The notes under the pieces were generated by a model, which worked only from the letters and a program-made list of their open reading frames with translations, did not search any database and was not told the DNA's origin. A stretch of 64,000 nucleotides of DNA, taken from NCBI GenBank assembly GCA_902580895.1, contig CACHMJ010000001.1:124001-188000 (forward strand), in the 5' to 3' direction. Positions 25,805-32,404 of this stretch are shown piece after piece. How positions within the stretch are numbered: position 1 is the stretch's first letter; the number at the start of each line of letters is the position of its first letter. The DNA comes from an uncultured Pelagibacteraceae bacterium. GTDB taxonomy: Bacteria > Pseudomonadota > Alphaproteobacteria > Pelagibacterales > Pelagibacteraceae. Both the position numbers and the translations under genes were made by a program.

Positions 25805-26983
25805 ATGAATATTAAATTTAATAATGAAGTAGTAATAATAGAAGCATTAAGAACTCCAATAGGTGCTTATAAAGGATCTTTAAGAAATATTAAAGCTGAT
25901 CAACTTGGATCGATTGTGATTAAAGAAATTTTAAAGAAAAAAAAAATTAATAGTCACGAAATAGATGAAATAATTATAGGACAAGTTTTAACAGCAGGTT
26001 CTGGTCAAAATCCTGCCAGACAAGCGGCTATCAATGCAGGAATTCCAGTTTCAAAACCAGCACATGTTATTAATCAAGTTTGTGGATCTGGTTTAAGAGC
26101 TGTGATTTCGGGATATCAATCCATTAAATTAGGTGAAGTTAAAATTGTTATTTCTGGTGGTCAAGAAAATATGTCATTGGCACCACATTCAATTTTATAC
26201 CGAAATGAAAAAAAATTTTTAGAAGATAAACTTGTTGATACAATGATCAACGATGGATTAATGGATGCATTTAATAAATATCATATGGGTGTTACAGCTG
26301 AAAATGTTGCAAAAAAGTTTGGTATTTCTAGAAAAGAACAAGATGAGTTTGCATTAAATTCTCAAAAAAAAACAGAACTTGCAATAAGACAAAATAAATT
26401 TAATGATGAATTGGTTAAGATAATCACTGAAAATGGAATTTTATATAAGGATGAGCATCCAAGATTAAACTTAACATATTCAGATCTAGAAAAATTAAAA
26501 ACTGTTTTTCAAAAAGATGGAACCGTTACTCCTGGAAATTCTTCAGGAATAAATGATGGAGCCGCAGCTTTATTATTAACTACTTTAGAGGAAGCTGAAA
26601 AAAGGTCTATTAAACCCTTAGTAAAGATTGTATCTTGGGCCTCAATTGGACTAGACCCCTCCTTAATGGGTATAGGACCTATAACTGCTGTTCAAGAGGC
26701 TATTAAAAAAGCTAAATGGAACTTAGATGAAATAGATATTTTTGAAATAAATGAGGCTTTTGCTGCACAAAGTATCGCAGTAATAAAAGAGTTAAAAATT
26801 GATAAAAATAAAGTTAATGTTAATGGAGGAGCTATTGCATTAGGTCATCCGATTGGAGCCTCAGGAGCTAGAATATTAGTTACACTTATACATGAAATGG
26901 TAAAACAGAAAAAAAAAAAAGGTTGTGCTACTCTTTGCATAGGAGGTGGCATGGGTATTGCAATGTGTATTGAGAAAATTTAG
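25805..26983 (+). CDS. Acetyl-CoA C-acetyltransferase (thiolase)
   Basis: A 392-residue biosynthetic-type thiolase. The active-site cysteine lies in NQVCGSGLRAV (about residue 91), the histidine in NGGAIALGHPIGASGARI and the second cysteine in LCIGGGMGIA. It interconverts two acetyl-CoA with acetoacetyl-CoA. No other beta-oxidation, PHB or mevalonate gene is beside it, so the pathway cannot be fixed. TAAAAT (25790-25795) lies 9 nt before the ATG. Confidence 0.93.
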   Translation: MNIKFNNEVVIIEALRTPIGAYKGSLRNIKADQLGSIVIKEILKKKKINSHEIDEIIIGQVLTAGSGQNPARQAAINAGIPVSKPAHVINQVCGSGLRAVISGYQSIKLGEVKIVISGGQENMSLAPHSILYRNEKKFLEDKLVDTMINDGLMDAFNKYHMGVTAENVAKKFGISRKEQDEFALNSQKKTELAIRQNKFNDELVKIITENGILYKDEHPRLNLTYSDLEKLKTVFQKDGTVTPGNSSGINDGAAALLLTTLEEAEKRSIKPLVKIVSWASIGLDPSLMGIGPITAVQEAIKKAKWNLDEIDIFEINEAFAAQSIAVIKELKIDKNKVNVNGGAIALGHPIGASGARILVTLIHEMVKQKKKKGCATLCIGGGMGIAMCIEKI

Positions 26984-27195: not shown

Positions 27196-30100
27196 ATGAG
27201 TAAAAAATTATTAGTTCCAGATATTGGTGATTTCGAAAATGTTGAAGTCATTGAATTACTTGTTAAAGAAGGTCAAGTGATTACAAAAAATGATCCAGTA
27301 GTAACTATTGAAAGTGATAAGTCTAGTGTTGAAATACCCTCAACTTTATCTGGTAAAATTGAGACAATTAATGTGAAAGTTGGTGATAAAGTTTCTAAAG
27401 GCGATTTAATTTTGAGTATTTTAGCTTTAGATGAAAAACCTTCACCATCTAAAACAATCCCAAAAGATACAGAAAATTTAATTAAAGAAGCTGAAAAATC
27501 ATTGGAAAAAAAACTAGAACAAAAAGTTAAAGTAAATACCAATGAGAGAAAAAAACCTGAAATAATTCAAATTGTCAATGAGGGTGATATTGATCCATTA
27601 GAGACCAACGAATGGTTAGAATCCCTTTCTGCAGTAATTGAGAAGGATGGGAATCAAAGAGCCCATTATTTGATTAAAGAATTAATAAACAAGGCTTATA
27701 TGGAGGGTGCAAATATTCCTTACACACAAAATACTCCTTATATTAATACCATTCCAGTTAATGAAGAAAAAAAATCTAATGGTGATCAAAACATTGAGAG
27801 AAGAATTAGATCATTAATTAGATGGAATTCTGCAGCAATGGTTGTTAGAGCAAATAAAAAATTTCCTGAACTTGGGGGACATATTGGAACATTTGCATCC
27901 GCAGCTACACTATATGATGTAGGCATGAATCATTTTTGGCGAGCTAAGAATAATAAATTTGGAGGAGATTTGATTTATTTTCAAGGACACAGCGCTCCAG
28001 GTATGTATGCAAGAGCATTTCTTGAGGGTAGACTTAATGAAAAACAATTAGATAGTTTTAGACAAGAGGTTAATCCAGGAGGTTTATCATCGTACCCACA
28101 TCCTTGGTTGATGCCAAGCTTTTGGCAATTTCCGACGGTCTCAATGGGGCTGGGACCAATGTTAGCAATCTACCAAGCTAGATATATGAAATATTTAATT
28201 AACAGGGGTCTTATAAAAGATGAGGGCAGAAAAGTTTGGGCTTTTTTAGGTGATGGAGAAATGGACGAACCAGAGTCATTAGGAGCAATTGGTTTAGCGG
28301 CAAGAGAAAAATTAGACAATTTAATATTTGTCATAAACTGTAATCTTCAAAGATTGGATGGACCTGTTAGAGGAAATGGAAAAATTATACAAGAGTTAGA
28401 AGGAATTTTTCGAGGTGCAGGATGGAACGTTATTAAAGTAATTTGGGGCTCTTACTGGGATCCTTTATTGGCTAACGATAAAACTGGCCATTTAATTAAA
28501 GTTATGAATGAAACTGTCGATGGTGAATACCAAGCAATGAAAGCAAGAGATGGAGCTTATGTGAGAGAAAAGTTTTTTGGCAAGTATCCTGAAACTAAAG
28601 AGTTAATCTCAAGCCTTTCAGACAAAGATATATGGAGATTGAATAGAGGTGGACATGATCCTCATAAAGTTTTTGCAGCTTATGATAAAGCCTCAAAAAA
28701 TATTGGAAGCCCAACTGTTGTGATTGCTAAGACTATAAAAGGTTATGGAATGGGCAAAAGTGGCGAGAGTGTAAATACAACACATCAAACTAAAAAATTA
28801 GATATAGACGATTTGATGTATTACAGAGACAGGTTTGATGTTCCTTTGACTGATAAACAGGTACAAAATATTGAATATTATAAGCCAGACCAAAATTCAC
28901 CTGAAATAAAATATATCAAAGAAAGAAGACTTCAATTAGGAGGATTTATTCCGGAGAGAACTACTTATGCAAAACCCATTAAAGCTCCTCCAAAAAACAT
29001 TTTTCACAATATGCAAGAGTCAACAGGTAAAAAAGAAATGTCTACAACAATGGCATTAGTAAGAATGTTAACAAATCTTTTACGAGATAAAAATGTTGCA
29101 CCAAGATTAGTACCGATTATTCCTGATGAGGCGAGAACATTTGGTATGGAGGGTTTCTTTCAAAAAATTGGTATTTATGCTCATGAAGGACAAAAATATG
29201 AACCCGAGGACTCAGCACAATTAAGTTCATATAGAGAAGAGAAAAGTGGACAAGTTTTGGAGGAAGGAATTAACGAGGCAGGCGCAATGTCTTCATGGAT
29301 TGCTGCAGGTACTTCATACACAAATCATGATATTGAAATGATCCCTATCTATCTTTTTTACTCAATGTTTGGTTTTCAAAGAATAGGTGATTTTGCTTGG
29401 GCAGGAGCAGACAGTCAATCAAGAGGGTTTTTAATTGGTGCTACTGCTGGGAGAACAACGTTAGCGGGAGAAGGTTTACAGCACCAAGATGGACATAGTC
29501 ATTTAATGGCATCAACTATTCCAAACTGTAAGTCTTATGATCCAACATTTCATTATGAACTAGCAACAATCTTTAGAGAAGGATTGAAAAGAATGCATGA
29601 GAAGAAAGAAAATATTTTTTATTACATTACAACAATGAACGAAAATTATCCTCACCCTGCTATGCCAATTGAAAAATCATGTGAAGAAGGCATTTTAAAA
29701 GGAATGTATAAAATTAAAGAATTTAACAAATATAAGAAAACCAAAATTCAATTTTTAGGATCAGGCACAATTTTAAGAGAAATGATAGCTGGTGCGGAGA
29801 TTCTACAAAAGGAATATCAAATTGATAGTGAAGTTTGGAGCGTAACTAGTTTCAATGAATTAAGAAGAGATGGCTTAGAGGTGGAAAGATATAATTTATT
29901 AAATCCTGAAAAAGAACCGAAAAAAACATATGTTGAAAGCTGTTTAGGCAAAACTGAAGGTCCAATTTTGGCTGCATCAGATTATATGAGGATGAATTCA
30001 GACCAAATTAGACCTTATATTAACAAGAGCTTTTACTCGTTAGGAACAGATGGATTTGGTCGAAGTGATACCAGAAAAAATTTGAGGAAGTTCTTTGAGG

Positions 30101-30234
30101 TTGATAAAGAACATGTCGTTGCATATGGACTAAGTGTTTTAGCTAAAGAGCAATTAATTGCATCTAAATATGCTCAAGAGGCAATAAAGAAGTATCAAAT
30201 TGATAAAGATAAACCAATGCCAACAAAATTATAA
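27196..30234 (+). CDS. aceE: Pyruvate dehydrogenase E1 (homodimeric AceE type) with fused N-terminal lipoyl domain
   Basis: A 1012-residue protein. Residues 1-78 are a complete lipoyl domain (VPDIGDF..., lipoyl lysine K42 in IESDKSSVEI, GDKVSKGD). A Lys/Glu-rich linker (about 80-125) follows. From about residue 129 (IDPLETNEWLESL) comes a full-length AceE-type E1, with the ThDP motif GDGEMDEPES and LQRLDGPVRGN, the pyrimidine-domain segment DFAWAGADSQSRGFLIG and HQDGHSH. It decarboxylates pyruvate and acetylates lipoyl groups. Canonical AceE lacks a lipoyl domain. It overlaps aceF by one base (TAATG). The 212-bp upstream gap holds TATAAG at 27177-27182 but no clear -35. Confidence 0.95.
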   Translation: MSKKLLVPDIGDFENVEVIELLVKEGQVITKNDPVVTIESDKSSVEIPSTLSGKIETINVKVGDKVSKGDLILSILALDEKPSPSKTIPKDTENLIKEAEKSLEKKLEQKVKVNTNERKKPEIIQIVNEGDIDPLETNEWLESLSAVIEKDGNQRAHYLIKELINKAYMEGANIPYTQNTPYINTIPVNEEKKSNGDQNIERRIRSLIRWNSAAMVVRANKKFPELGGHIGTFASAATLYDVGMNHFWRAKNNKFGGDLIYFQGHSAPGMYARAFLEGRLNEKQLDSFRQEVNPGGLSSYPHPWLMPSFWQFPTVSMGLGPMLAIYQARYMKYLINRGLIKDEGRKVWAFLGDGEMDEPESLGAIGLAAREKLDNLIFVINCNLQRLDGPVRGNGKIIQELEGIFRGAGWNVIKVIWGSYWDPLLANDKTGHLIKVMNETVDGEYQAMKARDGAYVREKFFGKYPETKELISSLSDKDIWRLNRGGHDPHKVFAAYDKASKNIGSPTVVIAKTIKGYGMGKSGESVNTTHQTKKLDIDDLMYYRDRFDVPLTDKQVQNIEYYKPDQNSPEIKYIKERRLQLGGFIPERTTYAKPIKAPPKNIFHNMQESTGKKEMSTTMALVRMLTNLLRDKNVAPRLVPIIPDEARTFGMEGFFQKIGIYAHEGQKYEPEDSAQLSSYREEKSGQVLEEGINEAGAMSSWIAAGTSYTNHDIEMIPIYLFYSMFGFQRIGDFAWAGADSQSRGFLIGATAGRTTLAGEGLQHQDGHSHLMASTIPNCKSYDPTFHYELATIFREGLKRMHEKKENIFYYITTMNENYPHPAMPIEKSCEEGILKGMYKIKEFNKYKKTKIQFLGSGTILREMIAGAEILQKEYQIDSEVWSVTSFNELRRDGLEVERYNLLNPEKEPKKTYVESCLGKTEGPILAASDYMRMNSDQIRPYINKSFYSLGTDGFGRSDTRKNLRKFFEVDKEHVVAYGLSVLAKEQLIASKYAQEAIKKYQIDKDKPMPTKL

Positions 30235-31499
30235 TGTCAAAGAAAGATATAAAAGTTCCAAATATTGGTGAATTCAAAGATGTGGAAGTCATCGAAGTTT
30301 TAATTAAAAAAGGTCAAAAAATAAAAAAGAATGATCCACTGATAACTATAGAAAGTGATAAATCAAGTGTTGAAATACCATCTTCTGATGATGGAACCAT
30401 AATTTCTTTGAATGTTAAAATTGGAGACAAGGTATCGGAAGGTGATAAAATTATTGAAATTGAAAGTGAGAAAGAAATAAAAGAAACAAGTGCTCAAGAA
30501 TTACCGAAAAGTCAATTACCAAAAGAAATAAAAAAAAATGATGTAAAAAAAACCAATGAGTCTGAAAATATAATAGTTAAAGATTTTTCTACAAAAGCTT
30601 CTGCCTCACCAAAAGTTAGAAAATTTGCGAGAGAACTCGGAGTTAATATCAACAAAGTCCCGGGTAGTGAAAGACAAGGTAGGGTTACCGAGAGTGATGT
30701 AAAGTTATTTGTTGCAACTAAATCTGATAAAAGTTTCAAAGATCAAAATACAACTGAACAAAAAATTGAACTAGAGTATTCTCATTCAGATTTTGGAGAA
30801 GTAGATATTAAAGACATTCCCAGAGTGAAAAAATTGTCGTCTAAATATCTAATGAACTCTTGGACAAAAATTCCTCATGTAACCAATCATGATGAAGCTG
30901 ATATAACTGAATTAGAGGAATTTAGAACTTCTCTTACGGACGTATATACTGGTGAAAAAAAAAAAATTACACCATTAGCTTTCATCGTAAAAGCATTAAC
31001 AACATCATTAAAAAAATTTCCAAATTTTAATACCTCAATTGATCAAATTGAAAATGGTAAAATGACTGTTAAAAAGTATTATCATGTTGGCATAGCAGTG
31101 GATACACCACATGGTTTGATGGTTCCTAAATTAAGAAATGCAGATAATAAAAATATTTCTTTAATAAGTACAGAATTAAAAAAAATCAGTCAGCAATGTA
31201 GAGATCTTAAAATTGATAAAAAAGAGTTGTTCGGAGGTTCTATGACGATAACTAGCCTAGGAGGAATTGGTGGATCTTTTTTTACCCCAATTATAAATTA
31301 TCCTGAAGTTGCTATTTTAGGAGTAGGAAGAGCAGAAAAAAAACAAGTATTCATGGATGGAAAATTTGTAACGCGTACAATGTTGCCACTTTCACTATCT
31401 TATGATCATAGAATTATTGATGGTGCGGAGGCAGCTCGATTTAATAATGATTTAAAAGAAAATCTTGGTAAAAATTTTGCTTATAAGTTAGCCGTTTGA
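30234..31499 (+). CDS. aceF: Dihydrolipoamide acetyltransferase, E2 of pyruvate dehydrogenase
   Basis: A 421-residue E2. It has one lipoyl domain (about 1-77, lysine K43 in IESDKSSVEI), an acidic/Lys linker, a peripheral-subunit-binding domain (about 123-163: ASPKVRKFARELGVN...GRVTESDV) and the catalytic domain (about 195-421) ending with SYDHRIIDGAEAARF, which holds the HxxxDG active site. It transfers acetyl from lipoyl to CoA and forms the complex core. No E3 (lpd) gene follows, so dihydrolipoamide dehydrogenase must be encoded elsewhere. Its lipoyl domain is about two-thirds identical to that fused to E1. Confidence 0.95.
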   Translation: MSKKDIKVPNIGEFKDVEVIEVLIKKGQKIKKNDPLITIESDKSSVEIPSSDDGTIISLNVKIGDKVSEGDKIIEIESEKEIKETSAQELPKSQLPKEIKKNDVKKTNESENIIVKDFSTKASASPKVRKFARELGVNINKVPGSERQGRVTESDVKLFVATKSDKSFKDQNTTEQKIELEYSHSDFGEVDIKDIPRVKKLSSKYLMNSWTKIPHVTNHDEADITELEEFRTSLTDVYTGEKKKITPLAFIVKALTTSLKKFPNFNTSIDQIENGKMTVKKYYHVGIAVDTPHGLMVPKLRNADNKNISLISTELKKISQQCRDLKIDKKELFGGSMTITSLGGIGGSFFTPIINYPEVAILGVGRAEKKQVFMDGKFVTRTMLPLSLSYDHRIIDGAEAARFNNDLKENLGKNFAYKLAV

Positions 31500-31507
31500 T
31501 AAAAATT

Positions 31508-32404
31508 ATGTCTAAAAGCGTTTCATTGTTAAGTGCTTTACTGTGTACATTTATTTGGGGAACTACATTTATTGCTCAAGACACTGGCATGGATGATATT
31601 GGTCCGTTTACATTTAATGCAGTAAGATTTTTTGTGGGTTTTTTGGCAATTCTTCCTTTAGCATTGTTATTTGAGACTAAAAAATTTCAATTAGAATTTA
31701 AAACTGGTTTTAGATATTTTGCTATTCTATCTTTTTTAATAGGATTATCATTATTTTTAGGATCGGCATTGCAGCAAGTAGCTTTACTTTACACAGATGT
31801 AGCTAATGCTGCTTTCTTTACAATTTTTTATGTTCCGATGGTACCAATTATTATTTTTATATTTAAGAGAGACTCATTGCATTGGAGTGTATGGCCTTCA
31901 GTTATTTTGTGTTTAATTGGCGGTTATCTTTTAACTAATTTTTATGATGCTACAGTTAGACTTGGAGACACATTGGTTATTCTCGGAGCGTTATTCTGGA
32001 GTACTCACATCATATTTACTGGAATGATTGTTAAATCATATGACTTACCCTTAACATTAGGTGCAATCCAAACTTTATTAGTAGCTTTATTTTCTTTTAT
32101 CATTGCTTTGATTTATGAAGAATTTGTAATTGAAAATATTCTCAATGAGATAGACTCCATCCTTTATGCTGGAATTTTATCAGGAGGTTTTGCATTTGTT
32201 TTACAAATTTATGCTCAAAAGAATATAACACCTGCACCAGCAGCCATAATTTTTTCTTTAGAAGGTGTATTTGCAACTATTGCAGCATGGTTTTTATTAA
32301 GTCAAATTTTAGATTTTAATAATATATTAGGGTGTTTATTTATATTATGTGGTGTTTTAATTTCTCAATTATTACCCCTAATGAGGAAAATAAATTATCA
32401 ATAA
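31508..32404 (+). CDS. DMT-superfamily (EamA) transporter
   Basis: A 10-helix drug/metabolite-type permease of about 298 residues with two EamA repeats: the first starts SALLCTFIWGTTFIAQ, the second LGALFWSTHIIFTGMIV. The frame could start at a TTG at 31496 overlapping the aceF stop, or at ATG 31508, which I prefer because it gives a normal N-terminus. The substrate is unknown. Its 3' end overlaps uppP by 27 bp tail to tail. Confidence 0.88.
   Translation: MSKSVSLLSALLCTFIWGTTFIAQDTGMDDIGPFTFNAVRFFVGFLAILPLALLFETKKFQLEFKTGFRYFAILSFLIGLSLFLGSALQQVALLYTDVANAAFFTIFYVPMVPIIIFIFKRDSLHWSVWPSVILCLIGGYLLTNFYDATVRLGDTLVILGALFWSTHIIFTGMIVKSYDLPLTLGAIQTLLVALFSFIIALIYEEFVIENILNEIDSILYAGILSGGFAFVLQIYAQKNITPAPAAIIFSLEGVFATIAAWFLLSQILDFNNILGCLFILCGVLISQLLPLMRKINYQ

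Follow-up and report, generated by a model that had tools for sequence, protein, structure and literature searches.

In pyruvate dehydrogenase (PDH) complexes the E2 subunit is said to build the core and to carry the arms (PMC8421416), and it is credited with one to three lipoyl domains (LDs; PMC8421416 and PMC7568260). The arrangement closest to the one considered here is the AceE-AceF(-Lpd) system of Escherichia coli and of other gamma- and betaproteobacteria, in which the gene for a full AceE-type E1 is followed by that for an E2 with a peripheral subunit-binding domain (PSBD) and a catalytic domain. LDs are known off E2 as well, and Neveling et al. reportedly described one in 1998 and 1999 in the E1-beta chain of Zymomonas mobilis PDH. 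PMC7873978 assigns this domain to E1 alpha, though the title of the paper it cites says E1-beta; the same text gives an LD to the E3 of Alcaligenes and Neisseria and names E3 (PdhD) as the lipoylated PDH protein of Mycoplasma hyopneumoniae. In corynebacteria, OdhA uses the LD of AceF (PMC7568260). The present analysis concerns a further arrangement, met in a stretch of 64,000 nucleotides (the window; positions 124,001 to 188,000 of contig CACHMJ010000001.1, assembly GCA_902580895.1) from an uncultured member of the Pelagibacteraceae (SAR11), where an AceE-type E1 begins with a complete LD and is followed at once by its E2. Very probably, the E1 of SAR11 carries a working lipoylated arm that was copied within the operon and made the E2 arm redundant, so that the latter was lost several times and E1 became sole owner of the arm in about one third of the genomes examined.

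The comparison with the described systems is instructive. SAR11 shares with E. coli and its kin the full AceE, the AceF-like E2 with PSBD and catalytic domain, and the gene order aceE then aceF; the difference lies in the arms, since the LD is on E2 in all 39 E2s found beside 44 named AceE genes outside the family, is also on a further E3-like frame at 27 of these 44 loci, and is on E1 at none of them. Zymomonas PDH, with the profile NF008854, is alike in having an LD on an E1 chain within the Alphaproteobacteria, but its E1 is a heterotetramer (alpha2beta2) whereas that of the Pelagibacteraceae is of the homodimeric AceE type. In M. hyopneumoniae, Neisseria, and Alcaligenes, as in SAR11, LDs occur off E2, there on E3 and here on E1. 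The corynebacterial hybrid of OdhA and AceF likewise has an E2-type acyltransferase domain served by the LD of another protein, which comes from the pyruvate enzyme AceF in that case and from the E1 of the same operon in SAR11. LDs on E1-beta or E3 are already known; an LD on AceE combined with repeated absence of the E2 LD is a new variant, and is counted as such because no report of an LD on AceE, of an LD-less E2 in SAR11, or of a link between the two was found among the papers listed in searches of the open-access literature.

The E1 gene of the window (27196..30234, + strand) encodes 1012 amino acids, beginning MSKKLLVPDIGDF. Residues 5-75 (27208..27420) match Pfam PF00364 (Biotin_lipoyl, E 3.5e-17) and include the E-S-D-K site of a lipoyl domain, with the putative lipoyl lysine K42 (codon 27319..27321) lying within IESDKSS. 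A Lys/Glu-rich linker (residues 76-128, 27421..27579) leads to E1 proper (residues 129-1010, 27580..30225), where the Pfam scan finds transketolase-type domains and PDH_E1_M. The NCBIfam model TIGR00759 (aceE) scores 1422 bits over residues 129-1010 (cut-off 859.9), identifying a homodimeric AceE, and TIGR03186 stays under its cut-off (1283 versus 1408). By phmmer, residues 6-883 of E. coli AceE align with residues 130-1009, and residues 130-173 match the E1 peptide in PDB entry 9h1n, chain C. The anatomy given in the preliminary description of this DNA, an AceE-type E1 with a complete N-terminal LD, K42, and a Lys/Glu linker, is borne out by the Pfam, TIGR00759, and phmmer results alike. Pyruvate is the probable substrate, judging from the protein family and the adjoining acetyltransferase-type E2.

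How widely the domain is spread was judged by open frame and lipoyl HMM at 95 family loci, drawn from 75 of 99 genomes in one search and from 20 further genomes; the remaining 24 of the 99, with a partial E1 or none, lie outside the classification. One locus (L204, genome G046) was set aside, leaving 94; its 1252-amino-acid frame is recognised as E1 only in part, the rest of E1 lies on another contig, and it is perhaps an assembly chimera. Among the 94 there are 90 complete E2s, two cut E2s, and two loci with no E2 match. Every one of the 94 E1s bears one or two LDs, which rules out a freak of a single genome and, with the E-values, a chance match; the classical AceE/AceF pattern of LDs on E2 and none on E1 occurs at none of these loci. 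Expressed as LDs per E1 and E2 chain, 46 loci are 1:1, six are 2:1, five are 1:2, two are 2:2, and 31 are 1:0, a series that would run from redundancy to full hand-over; the two cut E2s have at least one LD each, with one E1 LD at one locus and two at the other. The E1 LD is also present at 34 of 36 named Pelagibacteraceae loci, some of them from the same genomes as the 94, and the other two are cut at a contig end.

Outside the family, none of 58 AceE proteins (44 named and 14 others) has an LD. The preliminary description had called for a domain search of this kind, and had held that LDs belong to E2 and sometimes E3; the 58 outside proteins agree with that rule for AceE, but as a general statement it fails on the published E1-beta LD of Zymomonas. 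A class-level sample of 385 genomes yielded only six outside the family with a close match to the N-terminal part of E1, and in all six the E1 is without the LD. Nor is the same fusion hidden in long AceE frames outside the family: 12 outside genomes had an AceE frame of at least 960 amino acids among the matches listed, all of them within 20 genomes searched for LDs, and by coordinates no LD match falls inside an E1 frame. Within the order, a sample of 147 genomes gave an AceE match in 90, every one in the Pelagibacteraceae. The arrival of the LD together with a Zymomonas-type E1-beta was also considered and rejected, NF008854 being above its cut-off of 454 bits in none of 20 genomes of the order; the best score was 312.9 (genome G103, read through one TAG), and the window's genome reached 136.9 (contig C23, covering only positions 146-455 of the profile). 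The neighbouring family of the same order, f2 (for example G099-G114), showed no AceE match among the genomes listed, and NF008854 was above cut-off in none of the eight f2 genomes searched.

Several lines of evidence suggest that the E1 domain is more than a leftover. The ESDKSS motif is intact in all 103 family E1 LDs, nine second copies included. Taken with the 94 LD-bearing loci, this is the opposite of a clade whose AceE proteins mostly lack the domain and have a degenerate site, one of the outcomes that the preliminary description named as fatal to its proposal. In a simple Nei-Gojobori count over non-independent pairs, dN/dS of the E1 LD was 0.033 among relatives with LD-less E2s (26 pairs) and 0.041 among those with LD-bearing E2s (79 pairs), values close to those of the E1 core (0.031 and 0.027, respectively) and well below those of the fast-evolving linker (0.185 and 0.216). 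Purifying selection on the E1 LD is therefore close to that on the catalytic core. Where both LDs are present they change at similar rates (pN 0.048 on E1 and 0.052 on E2, pN/pS 0.098 and 0.156; 130 non-independent pairs). An unlipoylated relic, or a structural piece such as a spacer or docking aid with no role as carrier, is very improbable in the face of the unbroken lysine motif, of selection that comes close in strength to that on the core, and of the genomes described below in which E1 holds the sole PDH-type LD. What speaks for such a relic is that lipoylation of E1 is deduced, that the window's E2 has an arm of its own, and that lysine-less LDs do exist in the family, though on E2. First E2 LDs retain the lysine in all 61 cases (60 ESDKSS and one ESDKST, by eye). 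Where E2 has a second LD, in genera g5 and g12, the lysine is missing from it in all seven cases (L120, L128, L130, L131, L197, L199, and L201; EDDN, EDEE, EDDE, and the like), so decay of LDs does occur in the family, on E2.

The preliminary description also stated that E2 keeps just one LD. This is true of the window, but across the clade the LD is wholly missing from 31 of the 90 complete E2s, again by open frame and HMM. An arm relocated to another subunit is thus found in these 31 relatives and not in the window organism itself, whose E2 has an LD. Four of the LD-less E2s were scanned with Pfam, and all four have E3_binding and 2-oxoacid_dh and no Biotin_lipoyl, which is present on each of their E1 partners. 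In 12 that were inspected, the PSBD is reached right after a short start, as in MSDQYNKTSASPKVRKFARELG from locus L205. Searched against the PDB, one LD-less E2 aligned with residues 326-621 of E. coli AceF, the PSBD matching 9h1n_A and 4qoy_E; a predicted structure of an LD-less E2 (mean pLDDT 76.0) matches E2 catalytic domains with a TM-score of about 0.6 and an rmsd of about 13. The group makes up 11 of the 36 named loci, among them AG-470-C13, AG-337-G04, AG-439-A02, AG-343-D15, and AG-426-O05. Such short E2s could be mistaken for truncated genes, yet damage is ruled out: in the 12 inspected the short start runs into the PSBD, and the frame opens between -65 and +6 bases from the E1 stop, which leaves a lost LD no space between the genes (offsets below -1 reflect alternative starts further upstream).

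No PDH-type LD other than that of E1 was found in the ten LD-less-E2 genomes searched throughout (one of them, G051, is 99% complete in five contigs). The sole strong match in all ten is the E1 LD. There are 11 weaker matches, at E 6e-11 or weaker, of which eight are SucB, all above the curated SucB cut-offs, and three are biotin-carrier-like, with BCCP the best model at just under its cut-off; in G006 and G010, E1 is the only match. The presence of SucB in eight of the ten genomes raises the thought that LD-less E2s borrow its LD in trans, in the way that corynebacterial OdhA is served by AceF; the use of another enzyme's LD in Corynebacterium is documented in PMC7568260. Borrowing from SucB is nevertheless extremely improbable here, with a PDH-type LD on E1 itself in ten of ten genomes and SucB LDs just 31-39% identical to the query.

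The history of the two domains can be approached through their trees. In the window, the E1 and E2 LDs are identical at 50 of 78 residues (64%), in keeping with the two-thirds estimated in the preliminary description, which had suggested copying within the operon. The LD tree (92 rows, 73 columns) agrees: all SAR11 E1 and E2 LDs form one clade (support 98/96), and one was therefore copied from the other within the SAR11 lineage. The E2 LDs form an inner clade (93/94), around which the E1 LDs are unresolved. The direction of copying was probably from E2 to E1, given the state outside the family, and it would have preceded the diversification of the family because the E1 LD is present in every classified genus (12 of 14; g11 and g14 gave partial E1 only). 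Direct descent of the E1 LD from an E3 LD is disfavoured by the same single clade. In species outside the family, however, the LD of E2 and the E3-like LD frequently group together in that tree, so homogenisation at a later date could have masked descent from E3. Such pairing suggests that an LD was copied, or converted by its neighbour, inside the operon, and events of this kind thus seem common.

The distribution of the E2 LD calls for more than one change. Mapped on the tree of E1 cores, which has 94 rows from the family and 26 from the outgroup (five of these are second AceE proteins of family genomes, without an LD), its presence and absence require at least six changes, and an E2 tree from which the lipoyl columns had been left out also gives six. 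Forcing the 31 LD-less E2s into a single clade is rejected (AU p 0.0001), which also disposes of the idea that they represent one transferred gene type. The simplest reading is that these changes are losses. It is unlikely, on balance, that some E2 LDs were instead lost early and regained by recombination. The number of changes is indifferent between gain and loss, two basal clades of genus g1 (the window's genus) are LD-less, and one group of g1 E2 LDs (L016 and three others) is placed next to two rows from g4 at modest support (82/78), all of which would suit regain; that said, monophyly of the g1 E2 LDs is not rejected (AU p 0.46), those of g2, of g5, and of g9 are each a single clade, and foreign donors are thus not firmly indicated.

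A mechanism can be proposed from the chain orders seen in the sequence, LD-linker-E1 on one subunit and PSBD-catalytic on the other. LipB and LipA would load K42; lipA and lipB are above cut-off in six of six genomes searched. The E1 arm would then be reductively acetylated at a thiamine site, either that of its own chain (in cis) or that of the dimer partner or a neighbouring E1 (in trans), as the preliminary description had supposed for the cis case. The acetylated arm would reach an E2 catalytic trimer and give up its acetyl group, to be reoxidised by an LD-free E3 encoded elsewhere. In E. coli PDH the N-terminal segment of E1 binds the PSBD of E2 (PDB entries 4qoy and 9h1n), and an arm on E1 would thus be rooted close to the place where the E2 arm has its root in the order LD-linker-PSBD. 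With nearly the same rooting place the hand-over of the arm between subunits would be nearly neutral, which would explain its change of owner. Catalysis by the E1 arm and the geometry of the complex are predictions of this scheme. It is quite likely that many SAR11 lineages have a bare E2 core of PSBD and catalytic domain, with all lipoyl groups of the complex on E1 dimers, and in such 1:0 complexes the number of arms would be set by how many E1 chains are bound, that is, by how many PSBDs E1 and not E3 occupies.

For the window organism itself, a more modest role for E1 is possible, at somewhat less than even chance: the E2 arm may bear most of the flux, with the E1 arm an extra that adds lipoyl groups, much as E. 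coli AceF has arms to spare. Its E2 LD is intact, as is the lysine in every first E2 LD of the family; the LDs of one complex can be redundant (PMC8421416); and E1 and E2 LDs change at nearly equal rates where both are kept. Telling against an auxiliary role is the asymmetry of loss, with the E1 LD absent from none of 94 loci and the E2 LD from 31 of 90. Such a role in the window would be compatible with the full hand-over proposed for the LD-less-E2 relatives.

A number of observations weigh against the proposal of a working E1 arm that displaced the E2 arm. The E1 arm could be auxiliary in the window organism, for the reason just given, and the lipoylation of K42 is a prediction. The LD trees have only 73 columns, the E1 LDs form no resolved clade, and one E1 row falls among the E2 rows in a second LD tree; the change counts, as noted, do not distinguish loss from regain. 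No AceE match was found in four genomes of the window's own genus (G097, G152, G178, and G208) that are 92-97% complete. The model of full-length E1 is poor (mean pLDDT 47.8, with residues 1-80 at 74-86). Finally, in five of the 31 LD-less E2s, all from a single g1 clade (L017, L018, L213, L214, and L215), the Asp of the catalytic H...DG motif is replaced by Asn. The title of a PDB entry for the Azotobacter enzyme names His610 and Asn614, at the same spacing, and the substitution need not therefore abolish E2 activity.

The family offers a natural series in which the core job and the arm job of a textbook multienzyme machine are separated, and in which ownership of the arm seems to have passed from one subunit to the other in an oceanic lineage with very small genomes. 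It makes several questions testable: whether the arm must be tethered to the core, whether E1 acetylates the arm that it carries itself, and what number of arms suffices. Pelagibacteraceae rank with the most numerous cells of the ocean, and if the proposal is true, an unusual complex would handle a correspondingly large flux of carbon.

The window's own E2 (30234..31499, + strand) is a protein of 421 amino acids of the dihydrolipoyllysine acetyltransferase type, and its ATG has one base in common with the stop codon of E1 (TAATG). By Pfam it has one LD (residues 5-76, 30246..30461, lysine K43), a PSBD (E3_binding; residues 124-157, 30603..30704), and a catalytic domain (2-oxoacid_dh; residues 194-411, 30813..31466), all on the + strand. 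The pair is flanked upstream by a thiolase gene (25805-26983) and downstream by a gene for an EamA-type transporter (31496-32404), both assigned by open frame and Pfam. The window is part of contig C1 of a draft genome of 967 kb that is 82% complete, and the closest named relatives are genomes of uncultured Pelagibacteraceae (E1 identity up to 96%). A single E3 is above its family cut-off in this genome (G000:C3:79370-80752), and a 443-amino-acid frame with a SucB-like LD lies about 1 kb from it. LD matches in the genome fall only in E1, E2, this 443-amino-acid frame, and, weakly, a frame of 171 amino acids, and hence the E3 has no LD.

Some family genomes hold a second AceE of 883-891 amino acids without an LD (L137-L142; for example L139:3425-6097, - strand). 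No E2 was found within 6.5-8.5 kb around six of these genes, and the neighbours of the one at L139 are TRAP-type transporter-like genes, judged by eye. Two were scanned with NCBIfam models and gave near-equal scores for aceE and for the exception model AKGDH_not_PDH. This second enzyme may act on another 2-oxoacid with a borrowed E2, to judge by these sequence features.

At loci outside the family, aceE-aceF often has near it another frame that bears at least one LD (at L143-L149, L155, and L156, and at the 27 named outside loci, which are among L260-L304); it is commonly of about 560-620 amino acids, or cut, and E3-like by size. A few short E2-like frames also appear there among the matches listed when the phylum is searched with an LD-less E2 (G828, 354 amino acids; G717, 339; G365, 338; G713, 292; and G805, 288), and LD-less E2-like proteins may thus not be confined to the Pelagibacteraceae.

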